Assembly: GCF_000341245.1 (NCBI RefSeq)
Contig: NZ_ANAD01000017.1
Span: forward strand, 1-42,841
DNA length: 42,841 bases
Reading direction: 5' to 3'
Source: Nocardiopsis halophila DSM 44494
Lineage (GTDB): Bacteria; Actinomycetota; Actinomycetes; Streptosporangiales; Streptosporangiaceae
Part shown: one piece after another, positions 10,981-39,948 of the stretch
Position numbering within the stretch: position 1 is the first letter of the stretch
Layout of the letters: each line of letters begins with the position of its first letter
The notes under the pieces: model-generated
The model's database searches: none
What the model saw: only the letters and a program-made list of their open reading frames with translations
Told to the model about the DNA's origin: nothing
Position numbers and translations under genes: made by a program

Positions 10981-11634
10981 TCAGCGCACGTCCAGGACCA
11001 GGCGGGCGGCGAGGGCACCGAAGACGGCCGCGCACGCCCGGTCGATCCACCGGCGCACGGGCCCGCGGCGGAGCAGGCGCTCGGAGAGCATGCCGGCCAT
11101 GATGCCGACGGTCCCGTCCACCAGCAGCCCGATGACGACGAACAGGCACCCCAGGAGCAGGAGCTGGGCGGTCACCGGGAGGGCCCCCGGACCCGTCGTC
11201 ACGAACTGCGGGAGGAACGCCAGGTAGAACAGGACGACCTTGGGGTTGGCCAGGTTGGTCAGCGTCGCCATGGCGTAGACCCGGCGGAGTGAGCGCGCGG
11301 CCGGGACCGGTGCCGCGCCGGTGGCGTCAGGGGCCTCGTCCTTGCGGCGGCGGCTGTCGCGGAGCGCGGTGAACGCGAGGTAGGCGAGGAAGGCGGCGCC
11401 CAGCAGGCGCACGGCGTCGAGGAGGTGGGGGGCGGCGCTGATGAGCGCCCCGAGGCCGAAGGCGGCGGCCAGAGTGTGGCCGAACAGCCCCGTGCACATC
11501 CCCAGGGCCGCGACCACCCCGACCTTGCGGCCGCCGGCGGCGGCGTTGGCCATGATGTAGAGCATGTCGGGCCCCGGCGCGATGCTGAGGAGGAGGACGG
11601 CGAGGGAGAAGGCGGCGACCATGGCGGGATCCAT
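10981..11634 (-). CDS. LysE/RhtB-family amino-acid exporter
   Basis: A 217-residue inner-membrane protein with about six helices. The family motif is LLLSIAPGPDMLYIMANAAAGGRKVGVVAALG near the start, and the second conserved block is TNLANPKVVLFYLAFLPQFV. RhtB-type members export homoserine, threonine, leucine or related metabolites by proton exchange. Length is normal and ATG 11634 gives the usual family start. The gene stands alone: a strong terminator follows, and the 64-bp palindrome lies 103 bp upstream. The substrate is unknown. Confidence 0.9.
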   Translation of the reverse strand: MDPAMVAAFSLAVLLLSIAPGPDMLYIMANAAAGGRKVGVVAALGMCTGLFGHTLAAAFGLGALISAAPHLLDAVRLLGAAFLAYLAFTALRDSRRRKDEAPDATGAAPVPAARSLRRVYAMATLTNLANPKVVLFYLAFLPQFVTTGPGALPVTAQLLLLGCLFVVIGLLVDGTVGIMAGMLSERLLRRGPVRRWIDRACAAVFGALAARLVLDVR

Positions 11635-11736
11635 GCCGGGATTCTGCCACGCGGCGCCTGTGCGCTGGGAGTAGGGGCGTCACGTGGGGATACGGGAGGA
11701 CATCCGTCTGAAAGGCGCCCCACCGGCCCGAACCCG

Positions 11737-11800
11737 CGTTGATCTCGGGGGAGTCGGCCTTGTACCGGCCGGTACAAGGCCGACTCCCCCGAGATCAACG
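11737..11800. repeat. Perfect 64-bp palindrome
   Basis: Two 32-base arms (11737-11768 and 11769-11800) are exact reverse complements with no loop; symmetry stops at 11736/11801. The outer ends read CGTTGATCTCGGGGGAGTCG and the centre is GTACCGGCCGGTAC. It lies between the divergent LysE gene (start 11634) and the BtrH-like gene (start 11896), so it is not at the 3' end of either. It may be a dispersed palindromic element or a large cruciform or operator site. Confidence 0.95.
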
Positions 11801-11895
11801 AGAACCGGCCGGAGCCGCCCCACTGCCCGCACGGCCGCGCGACCATAATGGGGGCCCGGCCGTTCGCCTCGGTTCGGGAACGGAGAGGGGCCGCC

Positions 11896-12930
11896 ATGGA
11901 GCTCGGCAAGGTGATCGTGGACGGGGCGGAAGCCCGCGGGATGCAGCACTGCGAGACGACGGCGCTCGGCGTGCTCCTTCGGCACCGAGGGATCGATCTG
12001 TCCGAGCCCATGCTCTTCGGCCTAGGGGCCGGACTCTCCTTCGTCTACTGGGACAGCAAGCAGATGCCCTTCCCCTTCCTCGGGGGACGGGTCAAGCCTT
12101 TCGAGCTCACCAAGAACCTGGCCTCCGCACTCGGGCTGGAACTCTCGGTCCGCGAGACGACCTCCGCGCGCAAGGCGTGGGAGAACGCGGCCTCCCTCAT
12201 CGACGCCGGGTGCCCTGTCGGCTTGCAGCTCGACAGTTACCACCTGGACTACTTCGGCTCGAAGGTGCACTTCGGGGGCCATGTCGTTGCCATGTACGGC
12301 TACGACGAGCACGACGCGTACCTGATCGATACCGACCAGCAGGGCGGGACGGTCTCCACGAGCCGGTCCTCACTCGCTCAGGCCAGGGCCGCGCGCGGTC
12401 CGATGACCGCCAGGAACCGGTCCTTCTCGGTCGCCGCCGTACCCGACAGGGCGGGGGATCCGTCCCCGCTCCGGGAGCGGATCGTTCCCGCCGTCACCGC
12501 GTGCGCCCGCGCCTTCCTCGACCCGCCCATCGCCAACCTGGGCCACCGCGGAATCGACAAGGCCGGCACGCTGGTCAGGGGATGGCTCCGGAGGACCGAG
12601 GATCCGGAGGTCGACCTCCCACAGGCCGCCCTGCTGATGGAGAAGGGCGGTACCGGAGGGGCCCTGTTCCGCAACCTCTATCGGGACTTCCTCGGCGAGT
12701 GCACCGGGCTGGTCGACAGTCCCCGCCTGCGCACCGGCCACCGCCTCTACGGCGAGGCGGCCCCCCTATGGACGGAAGCCGCGGATCTCATCGCGAAGGC
12801 CGGTCGAACGGGTGAAACGCGGTACCTGGACCAGGCGGGGACGGTTCTGGGCGATCTCTCACGCATCGAGCGTGAGGCGATGCAGGCCCTGAGCCTTCTG
12901 GGAGACGAGGACCCGAGGCCTGCCGTCTAG
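11896..12930 (+). CDS. BtrH N-terminal domain / DUF4872 protein
   Basis: A 344-residue protein. The N-terminal half matches the BtrH_N family: GMQHCETTALGVLLRHRGIDLSEPMLFGLGAGLSF, then FGGHVVAMYGYDEHDAYLIDTD. BtrH of butirosin biosynthesis is an acyltransferase with a papain-like fold; here Cys19, His129 and Asp145 could form the triad. The C-terminal half is the helical DUF4872 region. GAGAGGGG lies 5-6 bases before ATG 11896. No carrier-protein or aminoglycoside genes are near, so an acyl transfer, amidase or peptidase-like role remains an inference. The adjacent 3' gene is on the other strand. Confidence 0.8.
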   Translation: MELGKVIVDGAEARGMQHCETTALGVLLRHRGIDLSEPMLFGLGAGLSFVYWDSKQMPFPFLGGRVKPFELTKNLASALGLELSVRETTSARKAWENAASLIDAGCPVGLQLDSYHLDYFGSKVHFGGHVVAMYGYDEHDAYLIDTDQQGGTVSTSRSSLAQARAARGPMTARNRSFSVAAVPDRAGDPSPLRERIVPAVTACARAFLDPPIANLGHRGIDKAGTLVRGWLRRTEDPEVDLPQAALLMEKGGTGGALFRNLYRDFLGECTGLVDSPRLRTGHRLYGEAAPLWTEAADLIAKAGRTGETRYLDQAGTVLGDLSRIEREAMQALSLLGDEDPRPAV

Positions 12931-12987
12931 GTGCGGCGTTCCCGGCCTCTCCGGGAACCGAACACCGCTCCAGGCCTCGGGTGCCGG

Positions 12988-13769
12988 TCATGCCATGTCG
13001 GTGTAGCGGTGCACGCGGTCGAAGCGCAGGGCCGCAAGGTCCCGACGGCGGAGCACCCAGTGGATCACGCCGCCGTCCAGCTCCTCGACGTCGTCCCCGC
13101 ACCTCCACGTGGCCAGGAGCGCCCAGTCCTCAGCCTCCTCCCCGGCCTTCTCGCGGGCCCAGTGGACAGGGTCGTTCTGGAGGACGATCGGGTGCCCGCC
13201 GATCTGGAGGTCCCATCCGGGCGGCAGGCCGTACACCTCCCTCCATGCGTCGTCCAATTCCTCAGCGAGCTCGAAGTGCTCGTCCTCAGGCGCGGGCCCC
13301 CACCGGTCGACGGCGAAGCTCTCGCAGGACTGCGGCTCCAAGCGTCGATACGACCGGGTCGCCTGCTTCGCCGTGAAGGGGACGCGCTCGCCGACGGGGC
13401 GGGCGACCGCGGCCGACCCCTCGGGGACGTGCACGACCTCGCCGGGCGCCGGCCCCTGTCTCCTGTCAGCGGGGTCGGCGAACAGCAGGAGGTGCCCTCC
13501 CGCCGGCAGGGGGAGGTCGGTTCCGCCGGACGGGAGGGCTGCGCAGTCGATCGAGGCGACGAAGGGCGACGGAGGGTCGGGCGCCCCTGCGGAAGAGTCG
13601 GGTTCCCGCCCAGCCTGGCCACAGGCGGTCCGTCTCCGCTGTCGCCGCCGTCTCCGAGGTAGACCGCAGGCAGGACGTCTCGGATCCACTCCTCCGTCTC
13701 GTCGGCGGGAAGGTTCCGCGATGCGGCCTCGGCGCGGAACCGGTCTCCGTTGGTGGATTCATCGGGCAT
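12988..13769 (-). pseudogene. DUF1963 (YwqG-like) gene broken by a one-base deletion
   Basis: The N-terminal part (ATG 13767-13769, MPDESTNGDRF...) reads in one frame to GGNPTLPQG, and the rest (APDPPSPFVASIDCAALP to the stop at 12988) reads in another. The span is 782 bp, one base short of whole codons. Restoring a single G in the minus-strand GGGG tract (13584-13587) joins the halves into a continuous 260-residue protein with the usual DUF1963 order: GG-P-LP, then FVASIDCAALP, LPAGGHLLLFAD and GGHPIVLQNDP. DUF1963 proteins (for example YwqG) have no settled role; one has been placed in toxin/immunity contexts. This may be a true frameshift or an assembly error in a homopolymer. Confidence 0.85.
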
Positions 13770-13779
13770 GGCGGACACC

Positions 13780-15006
13780 CTAGGCAGACGGGCGCCGTGC
13801 GGCCGCCGCGAGGAGCGCTCCCAGGAGGAGCACCCCTGCGACCACGACGACGATCCCGGCGAACCCGAGCCCCGCGGCACCGGCGGCCAGCTGGGGGCCG
13901 ATGCCCGCACCGACGAACATGGAGAAGGCGTAGAGCGCCGTCCCCACCCCCTGGCGCTCCGGCCCCGCGTGTTCGCCGATGCTCTGCACCAGCGCGGGCG
14001 CCGCGACCAGGATGGCGGCGGTGAAGACCAGCAGGACGGCGCCGAGGCCGATGGTGCTGCCTCCCATGAGAGCGGTGGCCAGGACCGAGAGCGCTGCGAG
14101 GGCGAGACCGGCGACGGCACGCGTCCCGGCGTTCCATCGCCCCAGGACGCCCGCGAGGAAGGGGACGGCCACCATCGCGGGCAGCGCGGAGGCGCGCAGG
14201 ACGAGCAGGGCGCCGTCGTCGCCCGCGATCTCCGGCGGCCCTGCGACGGTGACGGCCGTGTAGACCGCGACGAACCCGCCGAGCAGCGTGGCGGTGGCGG
14301 CGAAGAGCGCCGCCGGCCGGGGCTCGAAGAACAGGCCGGGCATGGCGGCGAAGGCCCCGAGCAGGCCGCGCCGTCCGTCGTTCCGGGACGGAAGGAGGAC
14401 GGCGCGTGCGACGGGGGCGGCGGCCAGCAGGGCGGCGGCACTGACCAGGAAGACCGCCTGCCAGCCCGCGACGAGGGTGATGCCCTGCGCGGCGATCTGC
14501 ATGACGGGGGCGGAGGCCAGGGCGGCCCCGCTGACCGCCGTCATCGCGGCCGGGCGGTGCTCCGGGCGGATGTGCTCGGCGACGTAGGCGAACGCGGCCG
14601 GGGCGAGCGTGGCGGTGGTCAGCCCCTGCAGCGCACGCAGGGCGATGGCCGACTCGGGGGACTGCGCGGCGGCCACGAGCGCGGTGGTGGCGGCCGTGGC
14701 GACCAGGCCCCAGGTGATGGTGGCGCGGGGGCCGAAGCGCGCGCACAGGGGGCCCGCGAAGAGGAAGCCGACGGCGTAGGCGAGGGCGAAGGCCGTGGAG
14801 ACCCAGGTGAGGGCGTGCGGGGTGGATCCCAGGTCCTCGGCCATCGGCCCGAGCAGGGCGAGGACGGAGTACATCTGGCCGACCATCGGGATCGCGGCGG
14901 CCGCGAGCAGGGCGATGGCGGGGCCCGTGCGCGCCCAGGCCGGAGCGGCGCCGCCGGGACCGGCGGCGGGCGGGGACGGGGGAACCGCGGAGGTAGGTGG
15001 GGTCAT
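13780..15006 (-). CDS. MFS efflux transporter
   Basis: A 408-residue major facilitator with about 12 helices. Visible elements are a helix-1/2 region (IALLAAAAIPMVGQMYSVLALLGPMAEDLG), the motif-A-like loop LFAGPLCARFGPRATITWG, and LRALQGLTTATLAPAAFAYVAEHIRPEHR, typical of drug exporters of the DHA1 type. ATG 15006 is preferred because the MTPPTSAV start follows AAGGT at good distance and the promoter boxes end just upstream; open codons further out cross the regulator gene. It is divergent from a TetR gene with an operator in its promoter, so it is probably induced by its own substrate. Confidence 0.88.
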   Translation of the reverse strand: MTPPTSAVPPSPPAAGPGGAAPAWARTGPAIALLAAAAIPMVGQMYSVLALLGPMAEDLGSTPHALTWVSTAFALAYAVGFLFAGPLCARFGPRATITWGLVATAATTALVAAAQSPESAIALRALQGLTTATLAPAAFAYVAEHIRPEHRPAAMTAVSGAALASAPVMQIAAQGITLVAGWQAVFLVSAAALLAAAPVARAVLLPSRNDGRRGLLGAFAAMPGLFFEPRPAALFAATATLLGGFVAVYTAVTVAGPPEIAGDDGALLVLRASALPAMVAVPFLAGVLGRWNAGTRAVAGLALAALSVLATALMGGSTIGLGAVLLVFTAAILVAAPALVQSIGEHAGPERQGVGTALYAFSMFVGAGIGPQLAAGAAGLGFAGIVVVVAGVLLLGALLAAAARRPSA

Positions 15007-30764: not shown

Positions 30765-30827
30765 GATCGAGAGTGGTGAATTCACCACTCCACGCCGCCG
30801 ATAGTGGTGATTCCGCCACTCTCGATC
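30765..30827. promoter_or_regulatory. Paired operators before the rhodanese-TauE operon
   Basis: Site 1, GAGTGGTGAATTCACCACTC (30771-30790), is a perfect 20-bp palindrome. Site 2, AGTGGTGATTCCGCCACT (30803-30820), matches the inner 18 bases of site 1 in 15 positions. In addition GATCGAGAGTGG (30765-30776) and CCACTCTCGATC (30816-30827) are perfect 12-bp inverted repeats around the whole. This fills the 354-bp gap between the two sulfur operons; the rest of that gap shows nothing else. The sites differ from CstR/CsoR sites, so a second regulator is implied. Confidence 0.8.
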
Positions 30828-39894: not shown

Positions 39895-39948
39895 TTCACA
39901 TACCTCGGGTATGCTAGCGTTCCATTTCACATACCCCGGGTATGTGAA
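39895..39948. promoter_or_regulatory. Two matching TetR operators in the TetR/VOC divergent region
   Basis: Site B (39926-39948) is a perfect 23-bp dyad: TTCACATACCC, one C, GGGTATGTGAA. Site A (39895-39917) has the same left arm, one change at the centre and a degraded right arm (ACCTCGGGTATGCTAG). The sites start 31 bp apart. Core consensus: CATACCNCGGGTATG. Confidence 0.87.

Follow-up and report, generated by a model that had tools for sequence, protein, structure and literature searches.

A 62-bp palindromic hairpin module, dispersed in a REP-like manner, is present in high copy number in the genome of Nocardiopsis halophila DSM 44494, and its most probable role, to which a probability of roughly 0.6 is given from sequence evidence, is that of a hairpin that terminates, or forms the 3' end of, transcripts from either direction. 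Length and ends are fixed, the arms covary, the free-standing copies strongly favour convergent gaps and the 3' ends of genes, and the module is present where relatives carry another G+C-rich hairpin. The copy from which the analysis started lies in a stretch of 42,841 nucleotides, here called the window, where positions 11737–11800 form a perfect 64-bp palindrome, i.e., 32-base arms pairing at 32/32 positions with no loop. As the sequence-only reading had stated, this palindrome sits between divergent genes, namely a minus-strand gene for a LysE-type translocator and a plus-strand BtrH_N/DUF4872 gene (Table 1). It is by far the longest of the perfect inverted repeats in the window, and pairing breaks immediately beyond it, with one mismatch at an arm of 33 bp and six at 39 bp. 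RNA folding gave -62.7 kcal/mol for the hairpin of either strand. The conserved repeat unit, as defined by comparison with other copies, excludes the outermost C/G pair and is thus 62 bp long (11738–11799).

Table 1. Coordinates of the palindrome and of its surroundings in the window.
Feature	Position	Strand	Remark
LysE-type translocator gene	10981..11634	minus	Pfam PF01810; start 104 bp from palindrome
Block situated where three relatives have a short LysE-MFS gap	11654..13789		~2.1 kb; palindrome, BtrH-like gene and DUF1963 gene
64-bp palindrome of the sequence-only reading	11737..11800		62-bp unit plus one extra C/G pair
Left and right arms of the 64-bp palindrome	11737-11768, 11769-11800
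62-bp dispersed palindrome, window copy	11738..11799		perfect; centre TTGTACCGGCCGGTACAA
BtrH_N + DUF4872 gene	11896..12930	plus
DUF1963 gene	12988..13689	minus	same accessory block as BtrH-like gene

The window palindrome is real. An assembly foldback is unlikely, as the flanking genes are unrelated and the symmetry stops at the repeat boundary, and it is also disfavoured by dozens of independently placed copies with the same ends. Counting copies of the arm, as had been proposed earlier, revealed 160 genomic occurrences of its 11-base segment GTTGATCTCGG (84 forward, 76 reverse) against 0 for the reversed control, i.e., a frequency far above chance. When the palindrome region was compared by BLAST with the 6.3 Mb of its own genome, which comprises 299 contigs, at least 40 places emerged, and a covariance model built on 40 copies found at least 75; the 75 copies were extracted with their flanks, and all copy numbers are lower bounds. 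The guess of a dispersed palindromic element of REP or MITE type was thus borne out as to dispersal, some copies lying inside MITE-like elements. Several contigs end at a palindrome arm or within about 45 bases of one (G000 C24:5, C49:7722, C22:47901, C94:31260 and C93:39091), so that the repeat breaks the draft assembly and copy number is underestimated; such repeats help to account for breaks in draft assemblies.

Nearly all copies are 62 bp long, with one of 60 bp (L037), and 55 of the 61 matches in a long-palindrome scan of the copy-bearing loci were of the 62-bp type. The ends are constant, i.e., GTTGATCTCGGG...CCCGAGATCAAC, with the outer 12 bases almost invariant and a hairpin foot GTTG/CAAC in nearly all copies, and the interiors sort into subfamilies. 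In an alignment of 40 copies, 92.3% of the cells were paired and both sides had changed at 16 of 31 pairs; the covariation score was 0.215, compared to 0.101 for shuffled and 0.034–0.068 for slid controls, which indicates that the arms change together. A recent inverted duplication of the window site, as once suggested, is not supported, given the membership of its arms in a genome-wide family and a symmetry ending at the family boundary. The idea that the unit had inserted in an older hairpin's loop was rejected, since past the 62-bp boundary no more than two flanking positions pair outward above chance, namely the nearest ones. Six loci searched against Rfam 15 gave no match at the gathering score, the window matches being generic hairpins far under the cut-off. 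A phage or plasmid origin was rejected, as the exact palindrome pattern was not found in viral contigs and no plasmid record was similar to it. No published description of the palindrome was found by sequence and keyword in the open-access literature.

The placement of the free-standing copies was analysed on the 37 with both neighbours called by a home-made gene caller. Seventeen were located in convergent gaps, 17 in same-strand gaps and three, including the window copy, in divergent gaps, compared to 33, 144 and 50, respectively, for the palindrome-free gaps of the same loci. The convergent share (17/37) compares with 15% expected by gap count (p ~5e-6), and the excess persists by intergenic bases, with 46% of the free copies in 17% of the bases (p ~5e-5). 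A gene 3' end adjoins 34 of the 37, at a median distance of 31.5 bp. The earlier remark that the palindrome is not behind a gene thus stands for the window copy and fails for the free copies as a group, which are gene-3'-end repeats. Among 14 copies listed in relatives, seven were convergent, seven same-strand (two of them listed twice) and none divergent. The ten neighbour genes inspected were ordinary, e.g., for NAD synthase, MurB or allantoicase, with no transposase among them.

In relatives, exact 62-bp matches numbered 45 in G002, 187 in G003 and 53 in G025, which belongs to another genus, for 59 in the own genome. The remaining three congeners had none and carried instead 6, 7 and 9 palindromes ended by GATGATC, nearly all of 62 bp; the latter type was also present in 39 copies in G002 and 94 in G003. 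Of the own copies, 22 have orthologous gaps that can be aligned, and in these gaps the palindrome is missing from most relatives; the comparison proposed in the sequence-only reading revealed no clean empty site with a target duplication, the gaps being too diverged to display one. Among 32 orthologous convergent gaps lacking the palindrome, 66% had a different stem of 10 bp or longer, a figure to which relatives contribute non-independently, versus 25% of 12 gaps of the own genome after masking of the palindrome and 14% of its divergent gaps. This alternative hairpin in the relatives' convergent gaps is G+C-rich. A palindrome of another subfamily occupies the orthologous gap in at least one relative at four loci (L013, L007:4739, L059 and L064), and at the first of these the flanks are orthologous in three relatives while the interior is inverted in one. 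In G003, a cluster of three 62-bp palindromes of different subfamilies lies within 370 bp (L082:1194-1562).

The formation of a hairpin on both strands, taken together with the placement, is what argues best for a two-way 3'-end hairpin. A transcript of either strand would fold into one near-perfect hairpin that would end or cap both converging mRNAs; a copy in a convergent gap would thus be tolerated or useful and could substitute for a resident terminator-like hairpin. Observations that speak against a terminator include the position of the window copy itself in a divergent gap and the absence of a U-tract after the hairpin, where 0.59 T per 8 nt was counted for a background of 1.07. As no U-tract is present, termination would be independent of one, or the hairpin would mainly protect 3' ends. 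Replication template switching is known to make the arms of inverted repeats identical and to flip spacers (PMC8604942; PMC8794818). The matched arms and the flipped interior at L013 fit such a process, which would here keep arms identical and flip interiors, possibly assisted by selection for the hairpin. Perfect arms are thus no proof of recency: where identical arms had been taken as either recent or actively maintained, recency disagrees with a family old enough for diverged subfamilies, and maintenance agrees with the covariation and the inverted interior.

The second explanation in order of probability, considered possible and distinctly less probable, is a selfish mobile hairpin with its own trans-acting enzyme recognising the GTTGATC ends, gene-end placement then being a survivorship effect. 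A terminator would not require the constant GTTGATC ends, which suggest that a protein recognises them; these ends are conserved across actinomycete families despite different interiors. The sharp 62-bp boundary, the very uneven copy numbers among congeners (0 to 187) and the occupation of the same sites by different subfamilies point in the same direction, and insertion at the least harmful sites could be an alternative cause of placement at gene ends. However, no candidate enzyme was found, none of 35 free copies had an abutting direct repeat of at least 3 bp as target-site duplication, the presence of Y1 transposase does not follow copy number, and the strong excess in convergent gaps holds per base as well.

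Of the 75 copies, about 35 sit inside three MITE-like families and about 40 are free-standing, so that a large share of the copies is carried by MITE-like elements, which may be the spreading route of those copies. The first carrier is 223–254 bp long, has 26-bp ends GTCGTGTCCGC... and in some of its copies shows short direct duplications, the second is roughly 310–590 bp long with ends AGTACTGCAACGACAGG, and the third has ends CTAGTAGTACTTCGTTAGG; since these ends are unrelated, the palindrome is the common part. Two copies of the GTCGTGTCCGC MITE (L182 and L184; G000:C202:11807-11980 and C185:17386-17549) lost 47 bp of the palindrome and kept its last 15 bases; because both palindrome-less copies retain these bases, they are deletions and not the pre-insertion, i.e., empty, form of the element. 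In a foldback MITE-like element (L079:1421-1642), the palindrome is central between perfect 80-bp flanking arms, which both carry a base change unseen in the asymmetric relatives L069–L071; this common change points to an inverted duplication, or a conversion of the arms, with the palindrome at its centre. On the strength of the carried copies, the palindrome might be viewed solely as an internal part of MITEs, free copies being relics of decayed MITEs. This is improbable, given that the free copies have neither MITE ends nor target duplication, that most of them are only tens of bases from stop codons, that the three MITE families are unrelated and have the palindrome as their common part, and that relatives have copies of other subfamilies at gene ends.

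A site bound by a regulatory or nucleoid protein, such as an operator, would be in keeping with the palindromic symmetry, the constant ends and the position of the window copy between divergent genes, and is nevertheless even less credible, as nearly complete pairing over 62 bases, with an interior that varies and covaries, far exceeds the needs of a protein site and divergent gaps hold only 3 of the 37 free copies, of which one may belong to a MITE that escaped recognition. The divergent setting of the window copy may itself be secondary, as suggested by sequence comparison of the locus. In G001 and G002, LysE lies about 110 bp downstream of the end of the MFS gene, and the gap has a different G+C-rich inverted repeat; in G003, a 62-bp palindrome of another subfamily directly follows the MFS stop codon. 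In the window genome, LysE and MFS are separated by about 2.1 kb, of which the BtrH_N/DUF4872 and DUF1963 block (11896–13689) is missing from the LysE-MFS gap of all three relatives, and a 150-base fragment of the BtrH_N/DUF4872 gene had no match in five congeners. In its divergent gap beside an accessory gene block, the window copy is probably displaced or non-functional. The last explanation is mobilisation of a REP/BIME element by the Y1 transposase RAYT. It is in keeping with short dispersed extragenic palindromes at gene 3' ends and is rejected as largely refuted, since the sole Y1_Tnp gene of this genome is IS200/IS605-like and lies beside tnpB-like remnants with no palindrome within ~1.5 kb, Y1_Tnp was not matched in two genomes of another family that have 140 and 51 pattern matches, and no such palindrome lies near any of the four Y1 loci checked in relatives.

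With neither U-tract, target duplication nor linked Y1/RAYT, the palindrome fits none of the categories REP, MITE or canonical terminator. The foot of REP hairpins is a GTAG-type tetranucleotide, whereas here it is GTTG/CAAC. REP/BIME elements are many-copy, extragenic and palindromic, and often lie between convergent genes (PMC1525189). The present palindrome resembles those mobilised by RAYT (TnpA-REP) in all these respects, and to that extent the earlier guess of a REP-like element stands; it differs in being near-perfect, of almost fixed length and ended by GTTGATC, and membership in REP fails on the transposase. Like MITEs, it is short, non-coding and repeated, but the 62-bp unit has neither separate terminal repeats nor target duplication; terminal inverted repeats of a known transposase were not found, the free copies consisting of the hairpin alone. 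Of the features of an intrinsic terminator, a stable stem-loop behind stop codons is found for the free copies, the window copy differing in position. In Streptomyces, Term-seq revealed bidirectional transcript 3'-end positions where converging transcripts end close together (PMC8269248); the likeness lies in these end sites of converging transcripts, but the Streptomyces sites are individual, whereas here one sequence is repeated, lacks a U-tract and is known from sequence alone. Finally, the paired DNA-uptake sequences of Neisseria and Haemophilus, i.e., repeated inverted pairs at gene ends, act as terminators; the likeness is one of layout, and the arms of the palindrome are far longer. The module can be regarded as an actinomycete REP-like repeat independent of REP transposase, and as a natural experiment in which terminators can be followed as they are acquired, replaced and kept perfect.

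Beyond the genus, the pattern GTTGATC...GATCAAC with 36–60 bases in between is common in some other actinomycete families, reaching up to 140 matches per genome, with controls near zero; the low counts of most genomes look like chance matches, many being non-palindromic. In the two genomes listed at length, the interiors are lineage-specific and the lengths mostly 60–62 or 71–72 bp. Tentatively, GTTGATC-ended palindromes of ~60–72 bp might form a superfamily of mobile two-way terminators that spans the actinomycete class, in which a factor would recognise the ends, lineages would amplify their own interiors, newcomers would replace resident hairpins or older palindromes, and palindromes would seed foldback MITEs by inverted duplication. 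The shared GTTGATC ends offer a concrete handle for seeking a spreading factor.

Two further inverted repeats were observed in the window, namely one with arms of 25 bases, 88% complementary, around a 13-base loop (30765–30827), and, in the gap separating a TetR gene from a divergent glyoxalase gene, an imperfect palindrome TTCACATACCTCGGGTATG...CATACCCCGGGTATGTGAA (39895–39948), possibly a TetR operator.
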